Shown one piece after another: positions 26,272 through 46,877 of a DNA stretch of 64,000 bases. This DNA comes from Gemmatimonadaceae bacterium (GTDB lineage: Bacteria > Gemmatimonadota > Gemmatimonadetes > Gemmatimonadales > Gemmatimonadaceae): positions 62,001-126,000 of the forward strand of contig JABAQJ010000002.1 in the NCBI GenBank assembly GCA_019186945.1, in the 5' to 3' direction. The translations under genes and the position numbers were made by a program. The notes beneath the pieces were generated by a model. It was not told the DNA's origin and did no database searches. It saw nothing but the letters and a program-made list of their open reading frames with translations. How positions within the stretch are numbered: position 1 is the stretch's first letter; every line of letters begins with the position of its first letter.

Positions 26272-26278
26272 CAATGCT

Positions 26279-26371
26279 CCAGGCCTGACGAAGCGACGCA
26301 GAACACCGCGTGCCGCTGCTACCTTCGGGGTCCTGACGGAGTTGGCGGGCCCGTGACCTCCGGGACCTGGA
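26279..26371 (-). ncRNA. ffs: Signal recognition particle RNA (small bacterial type)
   Basis: On the minus strand at 26315-26336 the conserved S-domain core reads GTCAGGA...GAAGGTAGCAGC, matching the GUCAG and AGCAGC asymmetric loop of 4.5S RNA. The outer ends CCAGG (26370-26366) and CCTGG (26284-26280) can pair, giving an RNA of about 93 bases. The expected Ffh-binding core is present, but the apical loop is atypical, reading CCGAA between C-C and G-G instead of the usual GGAA. The gene sits directly upstream of dnaX, a common location. Ends are estimated from base pairing. Confidence 0.82.
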
Positions 26372-38423: not shown

Positions 38424-38819
38424 ATGCGGCTACTGGCCTCTGTTGGAGTGGGCAGCGCTCTCGGCGGCATCGCACGCCTCCTCCTGTCCACGATGATTCA
38501 ACAGCGTGCATCGACGGCGTTCCCGCTAGGCACCCTGATCGTCAACGTGTCCGGATCGCTCGCGCTCGGATTCCTGATGCGGTACACGCTGGCCATCCCG
38601 GAGATCAGCATGGAGACGCGCGCCATGCTGACCACGGGTTTCTGCGGCGGCTACACGACCTTCTCGACGTTCTCCTACGAAACGGCGGCGCTGATCGAGG
38701 ACGGCGACTACCGGAGGGCGGGTCTCTACGTCTTCCTCAGCGTTGCGGCGTCGCTGGTGGCTGTGCTCGTCGGCTTCGCGGGGGCTCGCGAGTTTCTGGC
38801 GTGGCGCTCGCGTGGATAA
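38424..38819 (+). CDS. crcB: Fluoride channel CrcB/Fluc
   Basis: This 131-residue membrane protein has four hydrophobic segments and the Fluc signatures GALGGIARLLL-like VGSALGGIARLLLS, LIVNVSGSLALGFL and TGFCGGYTTFSTFSYE. It exports fluoride as a dual-topology dimer. A DUF190 gene follows after 46 bases. I looked for the crcB-motif fluoride riboswitch in the 140-base upstream gap and did not find it. Confidence 0.95.
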   Translation: MRLLASVGVGSALGGIARLLLSTMIQQRASTAFPLGTLIVNVSGSLALGFLMRYTLAIPEISMETRAMLTTGFCGGYTTFSTFSYETAALIEDGDYRRAGLYVFLSVAASLVAVLVGFAGAREFLAWRSRG

Positions 38820-38865: not shown

Positions 38866-39216
38866 ATGCACGGCTTCAAGGGTGAACGCACGCTGATGCG
38901 CATTCACATCGGAGAGCGCGATCGCCACGGCGGTCGCCCGCTCTATCAGGCCATCGTCGAACTGCTTCGCCAGCGCCAGTTCGCCGGTGCCACCGTATTC
39001 CGGGGAATCGCCGGATTTGGTGCGAGCGCCAAGGTCCGATCGGACCGCATCGAGGTCTTGTCGCTCGACCTGCCAATCGTCGTCGAATGCGTCGAGACCG
39101 AAGCAAGGATCGCCACGGTCCTTCCTGAACTCGACAACATGATCGGCGGCGGACTGATCACGCTGGAACGCACTCAGGTGATCATGTACCGGCCCGGGCC
39201 GGCGGACCACCACTGA
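38866..39216 (+). CDS. DUF190 protein associated with fluoride channel
   Basis: This 116-residue protein matches DUF190: GERTLMRIHIGERDRHGGRP, LYQAIVELLRQRQFAGATVF and RGIAGFG. The family has a PII-like fold and is often next to crcB; its role in fluoride resistance is not proven. The ATG has GGGAGGGC upstream. It forms a two-gene unit with crcB. Confidence 0.85.
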   Translation: MHGFKGERTLMRIHIGERDRHGGRPLYQAIVELLRQRQFAGATVFRGIAGFGASAKVRSDRIEVLSLDLPIVVECVETEARIATVLPELDNMIGGGLITLERTQVIMYRPGPADHH

Positions 39217-41094: not shown

Positions 41095-41274
41095 TTAGAA
41101 CTCGCGCCGCTTCATTTCCTTGAACATCCGCTGCGCCTCGAGCGCACTCGACTCCTCGCCGCCACCGCGCGTTGCGTCGAGCGTAGCGTCGTAAGACGGA
41201 CGCGGCTTGTTCATGTCCCTGGTAGCCTTGGCGGCGTTCTTTCTCGCCAGGGCCTGCAGCTGCTTTTCGTTCAT
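41095..41274 (-). CDS. Small conserved-looking protein of unknown function
   Basis: This 59-residue, highly charged protein begins MNEKQLQALARKNAAKATRD and has a Lys/Arg/Glu-rich C-terminus (RMFKEMKRREF). GGGAGACCGG lies before the ATG at 41274. It has no signal, membrane helix or Cys. It is convergent with paralogue B of the M20 hydrolases and shares the terminator. I know no function. It reads as a helical, soluble small protein. Confidence 0.6.
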   Translation of the reverse strand: MNEKQLQALARKNAAKATRDMNKPRPSYDATLDATRGGGEESSALEAQRMFKEMKRREF

Positions 41275-41720
41275 CCGGTCTCCCCTGCGGAGGATACGCC
41301 GATCAATCTCGCGTACCGGCGTGCGAGAAAACTGAACGATCGCGCGCGATCGATCAACGATCTGTGGCATGCGGTCGAGTACGCCACTGCCTCGCGACGC
41401 CATTCGTGTCGTCCGTGCACCGGGTATTTCGTGACGTCGTCCTTCGCGGCGTCGCCGATGGTACTGGACATTGCGTCCGACATCCCTACAATTGTGCGAT
41501 ACGATCCGGCAAGCCACGTTGCGAATTGCCCGGAGACGAGGCGCTTCTCGCGCCCGAAAGCGCGGCCTGTGCCTCACACAGTGGCGGGGATCCTGCCAGG
41601 TTGCGTGTGTCAGCGAACTCCCCGCGATGCGCTCCGGGAATCGCCATGTCGCCCGCCGGCAGGAGAGGTAATTGTTCCTGAGTTGGTACGCACGTCCTCA
41701 CCATTCTTCGGGAGGAGAAC
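41275..41720. other. Gene-free intergenic region (446 bases)
   Basis: No coding frame here has a good start, length or composition. It holds the promoter of the FecR gene (41465-41492) and a leader of about 220 bases that ends in GGGAGGAG at 41709. The 5' part upstream of the promoter carries nothing that I can name. Confidence 0.6.
41465..41492 (+). promoter_or_regulatory. Sigma-70-like promoter of the FecR-domain gene
   Basis: TGGACA (41465-41470, 5 of 6 matches to the -35 consensus) and TACAAT (41487-41492, 5 of 6 matches to the -10) are spaced by 16 bases. It is the best sigma-70-like promoter I found in the window. Transcription would start near 41499 and give a leader of about 220 bases before the FecR start. 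Confidence 0.5.
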
Positions 41721-42968
41721 ATGGCTGCCACGCTCAAGCAGGTCGATTCGCAAGTCGTCACTGCGCTCAGGGAGGGGGATGAACACGCCTTGGAGCGTGT
41801 CTTCTACGAACGATTCCCGGCCCTCCTGGAACTCGCTCGCGCAGACGTCCCAGACGCAGCGCGCGCATCGAGGGTTCTTGTCAACGTATTCCTCAGGGCT
41901 TGGCAGGAGCGTGCCCACCTGGACTCGCCGGCCTCACTCGATGCCATGCTGGACAAGGCCACTCACGAGGCGGCGCGGCGCGAAAAGGGGCGCATGGCGT
42001 CGCTTCATAGGTTCGAGGCGCATGAGGGTGTAAAGACCCAGCACAAGGTGGGTGTCCCGCCGACGCTGGACGAGGTGTGGGGCGAGGTGAAGGGCGCTCT
42101 GCACGGCACGACTGCGAATCATGCGGAGATGCAGCATCAGCGGCAGTCGCTCTCCAAGCACCACGCCGCGGAACACATGGCCGCCATCGGCAAGAAGAGC
42201 TCCCTGCCGATGCTCGCGTTAGGCGGCGTCGTGGCACTATCGCTGGCGTTGCTCGCCGTCTTTTTCTGGATCCCGTCGCGCGGATTGGACGGAAGGATGA
42301 CACGCGCCCTGGCCAACGTGGACACTCGAGAGATCAGCACCAACTCGGGCCAGCGCGGCAACGTAAAACTGGATGACGGCACGCAGGTGACGTTAGGCGC
42401 AGATTCCCGACTCCGGGTGCCGCCGTCGTTCCCGGCCACGCTTCGCGTCGTCGCGCTCAACGGAACAGCCACGTTCAATGTGCAGCCAGGATCGGCGCTT
42501 CCCTTCTATCTGCGCGTCGGTCGCGCCACTGTCGAAGTGACCGGCACTGTCTTCGCCGTCTCGTCGTATGCCGGTGACGAACGCACCCTCATTCGCGTGC
42601 GCGAGGGCACCATCAAGGTCAGCGCCGGCAGCGAGGAGCAGGAGGTAAGCGCCGGGAACGCCGTCTCCGTGGACGACGACGGGATCTCGACGCCATCGAC
42701 CAGCGAACTCTCGTCGGAACTCAGCTGGATCGACGGCCGAATGGTCATCACGGATCTGCCGATCGAGGAAGTCATCCCGCTGCTCCGCCGCTGGTATCAG
42801 CTCGATGTTACCGTGGCCGAGAAGTCCTTGCTCGAACGGCGCGTATCCTGGAGCGCCGGGCTCGACTCGGCGAACGCAGCGAAAACCGCCATGGAAACGA
42901 ACGCGTCGGTCCTGTTCGACTACGATGGAAAGAAGTGGGTACTGCGTGACGTGGCGAAGAAGAAGTAA
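41721..42968 (+). CDS. Transmembrane FecR-domain protein with sigma region 2-like N-terminus
   Basis: This 415-residue protein has three parts. Residues about 8-90 (GDEHALERVFYERFPALLEL, then LVNVFLRAWQERA) resemble a degenerate ECF sigma-factor region 2. A membrane helix (about residues 162-184, LPMLALGGVVALSLALLAVF) follows a His/Gln-rich linker. The periplasmic part has a FecR domain (NVKLDDGTQVTLGADSRLRV, LRVGRATVEVTGTVFAVS) and a DUF4974-like tail (LPIEEVIPLLRRWYQLDVTV). Known FecR proteins carry anti-sigma signals across the membrane; here the usual DUF4880 N-terminus is replaced. No sigma factor or TonB receptor gene is nearby. GGGAGGAG precedes the ATG. Confidence 0.8.
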   Translation: MAATLKQVDSQVVTALREGDEHALERVFYERFPALLELARADVPDAARASRVLVNVFLRAWQERAHLDSPASLDAMLDKATHEAARREKGRMASLHRFEAHEGVKTQHKVGVPPTLDEVWGEVKGALHGTTANHAEMQHQRQSLSKHHAAEHMAAIGKKSSLPMLALGGVVALSLALLAVFFWIPSRGLDGRMTRALANVDTREISTNSGQRGNVKLDDGTQVTLGADSRLRVPPSFPATLRVVALNGTATFNVQPGSALPFYLRVGRATVEVTGTVFAVSSYAGDERTLIRVREGTIKVSAGSEEQEVSAGNAVSVDDDGISTPSTSELSSELSWIDGRMVITDLPIEEVIPLLRRWYQLDVTVAEKSLLERRVSWSAGLDSANAAKTAMETNASVLFDYDGKKWVLRDVAKKK

Positions 42969-43489: not shown

Positions 43490-44284
43490 TCAGTCCGCCA
43501 TGCCTGGTGGTGTGTATCGCCCATCGACTGCCAGCCACCCACCGTCGGCGACAAGCACCGACCCCGTCACGTAACTCGCGGCATCCGAGAGAAGGAAGAT
43601 CGTCGGCCACGCCATCTCGTCCGGCTGCGCCCAACGTTTGAGCGCGTTCTTCGCGGCGTAGGCGTCGTACCATGGCGCATTGGCCTTGATCGGCGCCGTC
43701 AGCGGCGTTTCGACGACACCGGGAGCGACGGCGTTGACGCGCACGCCGTGCGGTGCGAACTCCGCTGCGGCGGTGCGGACCATCTGGACGATACCGGCTT
43801 TCGTGGCGGCGTACACGGCCTGGCCGGGCTCAACCACTTGCGAGCGGATCGACGAGAAGAGGACGATGCTCCCCTGCCCACGTGCCGTGAGGATGCGCCC
43901 CGCTTCGCGCAGAACGTTGAAGCTTCCGCGCAAGTTGGTGCGAATGACGCGATCGAACTCGTCATCCGTGTATTTCAGGATCGGCTTTCTGACGTTGATG
44001 CCTGGCGTGCAGACTACTGCGTCGATTCGGCCCGCCCAGAGCAGCGTCTCCTCGAGAGCTGCCGTCGTCGCGGCCGTGTCCACGATGTCGACGGCCGCCG
44101 ACGTAGCCGACCCACCGGCTGACCGGATCGCCGCCGCCACGCGATCGGCGGCATCGCCGTGGAGGTCGAGGCACGAGACCTTCGCGCCTTGCGCTGCGGC
44201 GACCAGGGCGACTGCCTCGCCGATGCCCGATCCCGCGCCCACGATCGCGACTCCACGGCCATCCAGCCGGAACTTGTCGGTCAT
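43490..44284 (-). CDS. Short-chain dehydrogenase/reductase (SDR family)
   Basis: This 264-residue NAD(P)-dependent oxidoreductase has the Rossmann motif GAGSGIGEAVALVAAAQ and the catalytic Tyr/Lys in AVYAATKAGI. It also has VRVNAVAPGVVETPL, the usual C-terminal SDR segment, and ends near YVTGSVLVADGGW. It is most like classical 3-oxoacyl or sugar-alcohol dehydrogenases, without a specific substrate. Its ATG overlaps the symporter stop by 4 bases, so the two are co-translated. Perhaps it oxidises the compound that the symporter brings in. Confidence 0.88.
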   Translation of the reverse strand: MTDKFRLDGRGVAIVGAGSGIGEAVALVAAAQGAKVSCLDLHGDAADRVAAAIRSAGGSATSAAVDIVDTAATTAALEETLLWAGRIDAVVCTPGINVRKPILKYTDDEFDRVIRTNLRGSFNVLREAGRILTARGQGSIVLFSSIRSQVVEPGQAVYAATKAGIVQMVRTAAAEFAPHGVRVNAVAPGVVETPLTAPIKANAPWYDAYAAKNALKRWAQPDEMAWPTIFLLSDAASYVTGSVLVADGGWLAVDGRYTPPGMAD

Positions 44285-45690
44285 GCGTGTCTACTCTCCC
44301 GGAACGGTGACGGCGAGGTCATCAGCGCGACCGCGCCCGCCATGACGGACGCAAGGAGGCCAAGGGCCGTTGGGGTAAGGCCGCCGAATCCCATCCCACC
44401 GGTCGCCAACTGGATCACGAGCATCACGCCGATGCCGGCAAGGATGCTCGCCATGGCCTGCCGCTCGCGGAATCGTGCGACGTACAGCCCGCCGAGGATC
44501 GGGACGAACAGGCAGACACCGAGGACGCTGTAGAAAAACGAGAGCGTTCCCACGATCGTTTGGGCGATCAGAGCGATCGCGATGCCTCCCGCACCGCCGG
44601 CCGCGGCGGCGATTCTGGCGACGTGGAGTACCTGCCGGTCGTCGGCGTCCCGTCGAACGTACTGCTTGTACAAGTCCTGCGACAACGACGTCGCCAGCAT
44701 GAACAGAATGGCATCCGCGGTACTCACTTCGGCGGAGAACAGTGCCGCCAGCCCCAACGCTCCGATGGCGACGGGGACATCCTGTGCGAGCAGCGTTGGC
44801 AGCGCAAGCTGGGCCGATTCGAGCGACGGGTGCAACGACCTGGCGATCATTCCCAGTAGCGGCGGTATGAATGCGAAACCGAACAGGACGATAGCGTTCA
44901 TGCCCACGCCGAACCGGACGGCCCGGTCATCGCGAGCACCGAAGACCTTCTGGAGCAGCCCCGGGGACACGATGAACGCCGGCATGAGCAGGAAGAGGTA
45001 CGACCAGCCGGAGGCGCCGTTCGACCATATGGAGAAGTATGCTGCGTCCGCGGGTGCGCCACTTACGACGCCACTCCAACCACCGACCTGCCCGAACGCC
45101 GCGGGCAAGGCGATCGCGAAACCACCGAGCAGGACCGTCAGTTGCAACATATTGACCCATGCGCTCGACAGTAGGCCGCCGGCGGTGAAGTAGAGCGTCA
45201 TGACCGCGCCACCCAGGAGGCAGCCGACCCACTTGGGCAAGCCGGCTACGGCTGTAACGACTGTGGACAGGGCGATCAGCTGGCCGGCAAGTATGGCGAG
45301 CGTCCCGATCCAGAGCAGGACGGCCACGATTACCCGGAGCCGGCGTGAGAATCGGAACTCGAGGTAGTCGCCGACGGTTCGCAGGCCGCGCTCGGCAGCG
45401 ATCCGTCGCATGCGGGGCCCCACCCACAGCGCCTGCACCAGGGAACCGGCAGCTGCCGCGCCGACCCACCACCATGCCGCCAGACCGTCGTGATATCCCA
45501 GGCCGGCGGCGCCGACCGTCGAACCAGCGCCAATGTTGGCCGCCAGCACGGTGGAGAACAGCAGACCGGGGCCTAACGTCCGACCGGCAACGAAGAACGA
45601 GTCGCTGCTCCGCACGCGACGCCCGATCCACAGGCCGACGGCGATCAGCAGACCGGAGTAGCCGAGGAGCAGGATCAGGGCGATCGGCAT
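44281..45690 (-). CDS. Sodium:solute symporter (SSS family)
   Basis: This 469-residue permease has about 13 transmembrane segments. Family landmarks are WIGRRVRSSDSFFVAGRTLG, AANIGAGSTVGAAGLGYHDG and GLRTVGDYLEFRF. The stretch LAALFSAEVSTADAILFML fits the sodium-binding helix. The substrate may be a sugar, amino acid or organic acid. It overlaps the SDR gene and lies 9 bases after the P1 peptidase stop on the same strand, so the three genes should form one unit. Confidence 0.92.
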   Translation of the reverse strand: MPIALILLLGYSGLLIAVGLWIGRRVRSSDSFFVAGRTLGPGLLFSTVLAANIGAGSTVGAAGLGYHDGLAAWWWVGAAAAGSLVQALWVGPRMRRIAAERGLRTVGDYLEFRFSRRLRVIVAVLLWIGTLAILAGQLIALSTVVTAVAGLPKWVGCLLGGAVMTLYFTAGGLLSSAWVNMLQLTVLLGGFAIALPAAFGQVGGWSGVVSGAPADAAYFSIWSNGASGWSYLFLLMPAFIVSPGLLQKVFGARDDRAVRFGVGMNAIVLFGFAFIPPLLGMIARSLHPSLESAQLALPTLLAQDVPVAIGALGLAALFSAEVSTADAILFMLATSLSQDLYKQYVRRDADDRQVLHVARIAAAAGGAGGIAIALIAQTIVGTLSFFYSVLGVCLFVPILGGLYVARFRERQAMASILAGIGVMLVIQLATGGMGFGGLTPTALGLLASVMAGAVALMTSPSPFRESRHA

Positions 45691-45699
45691 CCAGCAGGC

Positions 45700-46776
45700 C
45701 TAACGCTTGTGCGACAGATCGCGAGCTGCCGGCAGGTTAGGCAACCCCGTTGCCTGCCGTGCCGCTCGCAGGATCGCCTCCGCCATGGCATCCGCGGCGA
45801 GGGCGCCGATGGTCGTGACATCCGCCTCTTCCGCGCGTTCGCCGGTCGCCAGCGAGAAGATCGTGTCACCATCGCCGGCCGTGTGGACCGGTGAGATCGC
45901 CCGCGCATATCCGTCGTGCGCCATCTGTGCGATCTTCCGAGCCTGCGCCTTGGTCAGACGAGCGTTCGTCGCCACCACCCCTAACGTGGTGTTTTCGCCA
46001 CCGCCGCGACCACCTGCGCGGCGCGTAGCGCCGGAACGGATCAGCTTGCGCGCATCGGCGAGCGTGCTGCCGTCCTCGCTGCGCACGCCGGCCACGACCT
46101 GTCCGGTCGAAGGATCGACGATGTCTCCCAGCGCATTCACAACGGCGAGCGCGGCAACGACGAGCCCGTCCGGGAGCGTGATCGACGCCGTTCCGACGCC
46201 CGCCTTCATCGATCGGGCTCCTCCCATGAGCTTCCCGACTGTCGCTCCCGCACCCGCGCCGACGTTTCCTTCGGCCACCGGGCCGGACGTGGCGGCCTTT
46301 GCCGCGCGGTACCCGCAGTCGGCCGTGGGGCGGATCTTCGGGTCGCCGACACCCAGATCGAACAGGATCGCCGCCGGCACGATCGGCACTTTCGCAACCC
46401 GGGTGTCGAATCCGACGCCGCGTTCCTCCAGATAGCGCATGACGCCACCGGCTGCATCCAGCCCGAATGCGGAGCCACCCGCGAGGACGATCGCGTGCAC
46501 GACCGAGACGGTGTTCACCGGGTCGAGCAGATCGGTCTCACGAGTTCCCGGTGCGGCACCTCGCACGTCCACGCCACCCACCACACCTTTCTCCGCAAGA
46601 ACAACGGTGCAACCCGTCGGTCTGCCGGTGAGTCTGTAATGTCCAACCTTGATGCCCTTGACGACGGTCAGTCCCGTTGCGGCTCCGCCTTGCGCAGTCG
46701 CGGCGTCGGCTGCCACAATGCCAGCTACAACAAGTCCGTACATCCACCGTCGACGCACAGTCGATCGAATGCCCAT
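45700..46776 (-). CDS. P1/S58-family exported peptidase (DmpA-like)
   Basis: This 358-residue protein has a signal peptide (about residues 1-28, ending DAATAQ). It matches the P1 family of self-cleaving N-terminal nucleophile aminopeptidases. The cleavage motif ENTTLGVVATNARL is preceded by the long beta-rich stretch GNVGAGAGATVGKLMGGARS. The Thr after the Asn is expected to be the new N-terminal nucleophile. I start at the ATG at 46776. An M20 deacylase lies divergently 101 bases away. Confidence 0.9.
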   Translation of the reverse strand: MGIRSTVRRRWMYGLVVAGIVAADAATAQGGAATGLTVVKGIKVGHYRLTGRPTGCTVVLAEKGVVGGVDVRGAAPGTRETDLLDPVNTVSVVHAIVLAGGSAFGLDAAGGVMRYLEERGVGFDTRVAKVPIVPAAILFDLGVGDPKIRPTADCGYRAAKAATSGPVAEGNVGAGAGATVGKLMGGARSMKAGVGTASITLPDGLVVAALAVVNALGDIVDPSTGQVVAGVRSEDGSTLADARKLIRSGATRRAGGRGGGENTTLGVVATNARLTKAQARKIAQMAHDGYARAISPVHTAGDGDTIFSLATGERAEEADVTTIGALAADAMAEAILRAARQATGLPNLPAARDLSHKR

Positions 46777-46877
46777 GGCCACGCTCTCCCAAGAGTGTTC
46801 GCTGGTCGATGCGCCCTGCGTGCCCTCCATGCACGCGCGGTGCTGCGCCTGGCGTCCAATCGCCGGTCGGCTCGCTC

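Follow-up and report, generated by a model that had tools for sequence, protein, structure and literature searches.

A sigma region 2 fold fused to a membrane-bound FecR-type protein in the Gemmatimonadaceae: a putative maintained pseudo-sigma

Results

The window, a 64,000-nt stretch of a Gemmatimonadaceae contig, carries a forward-strand gene whose 415-residue product is confirmed to consist of an ECF sigma region 2 (sigma2) fold, a short linker, one transmembrane (TM) helix and a periplasmic domain of the FecR/PupR type. In most orthologues, a GGAG-like site lies upstream of the same start. The parts of the gene are as follows.

41721..42968, +: whole gene, a putative pseudo-sigma2/FecR fusion of 415 aa with an ATG start and single-copy orthologues in ~86 genomes
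41710..41717, +: ribosome binding site GGGAGGAG, read directly from the sequence
41736..42020, +: ECF region 2-like domain, residues 6-100 (sequence models, profiles, predicted fold)
41865..41885, +: rewritten region 2.2 motif, residues 49-55, A-S-R-V-L-V-N where cell-surface signalling (CSS) sigmas have A-E-[ED]-x-x-Q-[DE]
42057..42104, +: linker helix, residues 113-128 with W120, like the FecR 'DvDaAW' pre-membrane helix (profile alignment; helix in the model)
42111..42185, +: juxtamembrane His-rich helix, residues 131-155, with H152 at 42174-42176, invariant in 47/47
42216..42284, +: TM helix, residues ~166-188 (hydrophobic stretch; model helix 166-197)
42327..42695, +: periplasmic FecR / juxta-membrane beta subdomain, residues 203-325 (Pfam FecR; fold matches 4m0n and PupR 6ovk)
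42729..42953, +: C-terminal STN-like subdomain (FecR_C/DUF4974), residues 337-411 (40/47 orthologues; STN fold matches)

A sequence-only reading of this locus had proposed an ECF region 2 domain fused to a FecR membrane protein, and the profiles, the predicted fold and the Pfam FecR match all bear this out. The AlphaFold model has a pLDDT of 90 overall and of ~97 in the sigma2 domain. As read from the match table, 23 of the 35 genera of the family carry the fusion, with one full-length copy in each of about 86 genomes out of 179. Homologues with the same architecture, which the sequence-only reading had suggested looking for, thus exist within the family, and the presence of the fusion in ~86 independent genomes rules out an assembly or gene-calling artefact. 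Among the matches listed from 395 genomes drawn from the phylum, those outside the family involve the FecR half alone; a contig scan with the single window protein gave one short, weak match on a Brachyspira-labelled contig, which was taken as chance. In a tree of the FecR halves, the fusions split from ordinary FecRs at 100/100.

Several lines of evidence identify the cytoplasmic domain as a sigma region 2. NCBIfam sigma models match the N-terminus (down to 5e-6 in the window protein and 2e-9 in orthologues), and when an N-terminal profile of 47 orthologues was compared with solved structures, all 13 PDB sequence matches were sigma factors (best E 7e-5). Profile-profile comparison of the fusion N-terminus with ECF sigmas of its own genome gave 98% probability and E values of 2e-13 to 3e-14. 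The predicted fold matches region 2 of sigmaE, SigW, SigK, CnrH and RpoE at Z 10-11.5, and in a structural search with the cytoplasmic model all 50 matches listed were sigma factors, the best at Z 11.5. A Z of ~11 alone might reflect a common helical arrangement; we conclude homology because the sequence profiles agree. Chance similarity is ruled out by the PDB profile matches, the ECF profile comparison and the fold matches taken together, and the region 2 similarity claimed earlier is upheld. Pfam Sigma70_r2 makes no call in the window copy and matches 7 of 47 orthologues, and the domain is therefore a divergent region 2.

An ordinary FecR would carry a DUF4880 anti-sigma domain at this position, an identity that the sequence-only reading had itself raised as the alternative. 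Alignment of the N-terminus with canonical FecR N-termini by hhalign fails (0.6% probability, vs 98% for the ECFs), which rules out the DUF4880 reading. The DUF4880 model PF16220 has no match in the source genome, where it also misses the two ordinary FecRs. Of the parts of an ECF sigma, the sigma2 fold is present and the sigma4 domain that follows it is absent: no Pfam sigma4 family is among the families matching at least two of the 47 members, and the model shows just two helices in the 103-156 segment.

Beyond the membrane, the protein has the features of a FecR-type regulator, namely a TM helix, a FecR periplasmic domain and an STN/FecR_C subdomain. Pfam FecR covers residues 204-299 (E 2.4e-14) and is found in 47/47 orthologues, while FecR_C/DUF4974 (residues 341-376) is sub-threshold in the window copy and matches 40/47 orthologues. 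Residues 202-412 match the fold of the periplasmic domains of BDI_1681 (4m0n, Z 22.3) and PupR (6ovk, Z 21.4), and the C-terminal subdomain matches STN folds, including the FecA signalling domain (Z 6.2). The earlier placement of FecR and DUF4974-like domains outside the membrane anchor is thus correct. Above threshold, Pfam shows FecR domains only, with no receiver domain.

Sigma regions 2.1/2.2 bind core RNA polymerase (RNAP) and regions 2.3/2.4 bind DNA (PMC4256889; PMC7406223). In the fusions, the region 2.2 core-binding motif [DE]xxQ[DE] is absent. Position 51, which is D/E in 21/21 CSS sigmas, is R/K in 44/47 fusions, a reversal of charge. Q54 is found in 17/21 CSS sigmas vs 2/47 fusions and D/E55 in 21/21 vs 2/47, with mostly small residues at 55 in the fusions. 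N83, present in 17/21 CSS sigmas, is outside the five commonest residues at its position in the fusions, where H or E occurs in 33/47. W61 and R64 are common to both groups, and W61, R64 and R91 are conserved among the fusions. The nearest true sigmas keep region 2.2 and -10 residues that are replaced in the fusion, which also lacks sigma4; the fusion is therefore unlikely to act as a sigma factor or to hold core RNAP.

The sequence-only reading had suggested such a holding role, in which the protein would be a decoy that tethers core RNAP at the membrane. Core binding in ECFs falls mainly to region 2, whose fold is intact here; with the D/E-x-x-Q-D/E core motif replaced and the charge at position 51 reversed in 44/47 sequences, we consider the decoy very unlikely. 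A sigma role could also take the form of a one-piece sigma/anti-sigma protein, in which a periplasmic signal would lead to proteolysis and to delivery of the cytosolic domain to RNAP, perhaps with a separate sigma4 partner. The order of parts is that of IutY of Pseudomonas putida, a hybrid sigma/anti-sigma of group ECF243 in which a single TM helix joins the cytosolic sigma part to a periplasmic FecR-type CSS domain (PMC5411451, PMC8999054). In addition, the sigma2-only protein RsoA works with SigO in Bacillus subtilis (PMC8103513), and the periplasmic domain, with its C-terminal STN-like subdomain, belongs to the PupR class, which leads to regulated proteolysis (PMC7186176). The sigma domain of IutY is a working one and its gene adjoins that of the receptor IutA, whereas the fusion lacks the complete and active sigma domain in cis that marks the IutY type and has neither a receptor gene nor a sigma4 gene adjoining. 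We therefore regard an IutY-like mechanism as improbable. In its general form, a one-piece signalling protein, as the sequence-only reading had offered, is possible.

The fusion could also be a decaying relic of a fused sigma/anti-sigma without a present cytosolic function, and sigma2 has indeed been lost outright in part of genus g7. For residues 8-103, dN/dS across 13 orthologue pairs was 0.09-0.33 by a simple counting method, with dS up to ~2 in some pairs, and in 12 of the 13 pairs it did not exceed that of the FecR half. The sigma2 domain is therefore maintained under purifying selection. Together with the pLDDT of ~97 and the single copy kept in 23 genera, this makes a relic extremely unlikely; outside g7, the selection test largely refutes it. 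As judged from sequence, then, the fusion is a maintained pseudo-sigma, in which the sigma2 fold is kept while the residues predicted to bind polymerase and read the -10 element are replaced. The working residues are replaced while selection keeps the shape, a pattern suggestive of a sigma fragment that now serves as a binding module and not in promoter reading.

Two segments lie between sigma2 and the membrane. The linker helix carries W120 in 43/47 orthologues and aligns, in a low-confidence stretch of the profile alignment, with the pre-membrane 'DvDaAW' helix of ordinary FecRs. In the four g9 sequences, both W120 and the region 2.2 residue P50 are altered, a joint change that represents a single phylogenetic event and is compatible with a contact in cis. 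The following helix carries H152, which with M1 and G248 makes up the only residues invariant in all 47 sequences. H152 lies ~14 residues before the TM helix, most orthologues have a partner His at 147/148, and the His-rich motif survives even in truncated forms without sigma2. This motif is possibly a metal site.

The gene has no conserved neighbour. At 41 loci compared, no sigma, transducer or other gene was conserved, and neighbours therefore lend no support to any function. In agreement with the sequence-only reading, which noted no separate sigma gene nearby, none lies within the window, and the nearest Sigma70_r2 match on the contig is ~73 kb away. A cognate sigma with a TonB transducer was not found beside the fusion gene. 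A dedicated transducer elsewhere in the source genome was also rejected: its two STN receptors each adjoin another FecR and not the fusion, and the remaining STN matches seem to be a secretin and a protein of the flagellar hook. The source genome has two cell-surface signalling sets, L143 (contig C5, ~328-330 kb) and L144 (contig C2, ~93-98 kb), in both of which an ECF sigma is divergent from a FecR, and the FecR has after it a TonB-receptor-like protein that matches STN weakly.

Other features were seen in the window. An ORF of ~58 aa without a Pfam match (41095-41271, -) is divergent from the fusion gene. A CrcB-like protein lies beside a DUF190 protein (38424-38819 and 38881-39216, +), and Rfam made no fluoride riboswitch call in the window. 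A bacterial small SRP RNA (26275-26371, -) scores just over the Rfam threshold. Genes for an SDR oxidoreductase, a sodium:solute symporter and an S58 peptidase stand in a row at 43490-46830 (-) and may form an operon.

The distribution of the family bears on what the fusion could bind. In eight genomes (G149, G023, G105, G104, G103, G092, G146 and G107; 90-100% complete), the fusion is the sole FecR found by both searches, although the sensitivity of the FecR domain search is not perfect, as it missed the fusion itself in G138. Therefore, mimicry of sigma2 cannot target other FecRs alone, and another class of anti-sigma would be needed. In genus g7, five genomes (L136, L137, L138, L139 and L140) lack sigma2 and keep the TM helix and FecR domain; their orthologues have 282-293 aa, with a short His-containing tail followed by the TM helix and FecR. 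Four others (L141, L145-L147) have a divergent sigma2 domain. Since the five sequences without sigma2 form one nested clade, a single secondary loss accounts for them, and the TM helix and FecR domain kept after this loss indicate that the periplasmic part is of use by itself.

Discussion

Sequence comparisons point to the origin of the fusion. When the sigma2 profile of the family was run against the sigmas of the source genome, two FecR-partner ECFs scored 62 and 50 bits and the others at most 30.5 bits, and the top 18 scorers of this profile all came from FecR loci. Because the sigma2 part is closest to these FecI-like sigmas and has W61 and R64 in common with CSS sigmas, the fusion probably goes back to a FecI-like sigma and an adjoining FecR anti-sigma that became one protein, with loss of sigma4 and of the DUF4880 helices. 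What would have remained is sigma2, then the last cytoplasmic helix of FecR, the TM helix and the periplasmic sensor.

Anti-sigma factors normally use helix 4 to bind and cover the 2.1/2.2 face of sigma2 and helix 1 to bind sigma4 (PMC7406223). The fusion keeps half of this interface, sigma2 and the FecR-like last helix, without sigma4 and DUF4880. The suggestion of a fused anti-sigma platform thus stands in part: a helix like the last cytoplasmic helix of FecR remains, and the DUF4880 anti-sigma domain is missing. A precedent for sigma mimicry is PhyR, which titrates an anti-sigma through a sigma-like domain whose core and promoter regions are degenerate (PMC8103513). Based on the half interface, the P50/W120 co-change and this precedent, we tentatively favour, at somewhat less than even confidence, a membrane-bound pseudo-sigma that acts as a PhyR-like protein-binding mimic of sigma2. 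Judging from model confidence, the remodelled 2.1/2.2 face may be capped in cis by the W120 helix. Engagement of the periplasmic domain would expose this face, which could then bind a partner in trans, for example the helix with which another anti-sigma binds sigma2. Capture of the anti-sigma would free its sigma. This reading is limited by the eight genomes without another FecR and the five without sigma2, and the lack of a conserved neighbour that could point to a partner also counts against it.

Alternatively, the sigma2 fold may have been co-opted for a non-sigma task as a scaffold, for dimerisation or for a partner outside transcription, with the main work done in the periplasm by FecR/STN. 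The same two sets of genomes count in its favour, as do the lack of any conserved sigma, transducer or other neighbour and the invariant juxtamembrane H152. The conserved W61, R64 and R91 and the basic residue at 51 suggest instead a specific surface, and sigma2 is under purifying selection no weaker than that on FecR. We consider a scaffold role the next explanation in line, only slightly less likely than the mimic.

The fusion falls outside the ECF sigmas, as it has no sigma4 and a replaced motif, outside the ordinary FecRs, as DUF4880 is absent, and outside the IutY type, as its sigma part is incomplete and altered. It resembles the FecR/PupR CSS anti-sigmas in its TM helix, FecR beta and STN subdomains, PupR fold and FecR-like linker helix, but has a sigma2 fold in place of DUF4880 and is an orphan, without an adjoining cognate sigma or transducer. 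FecI-like and TIGR02985 ECF sigmas are the closest sequence relatives of its sigma2 domain, and from these it differs in lacking sigma4 and the functional residues. Like the sigma-like domain of PhyR from Alphaproteobacteria, its sigma2 domain is degenerate in the core and promoter regions with the fold kept. PhyR is soluble, partners NepR and combines a receiver domain with a fuller sigma-like domain, whereas the fusion has sigma2 only, is membrane bound and has no receiver. RsoA is also a stand-alone sigma2 domain, but is an active part of a two-subunit sigma, while the fusion has other residues at the core and -10 positions and bears the domain on the membrane.

We found no paper naming such a fusion in this phylum and, to our knowledge, documented sigma mimicry comes mainly from PhyR, a soluble system. 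For annotation pipelines, the fusion counsels caution against labelling such genes as sigma or anti-sigma factors. The loss of sigma2 in one sublineage offers a natural comparison. If the mimic reading is true, sigma domains would be reusable as regulators in cell-surface signalling, here in a lineage-wide, single-copy and strongly selected form.
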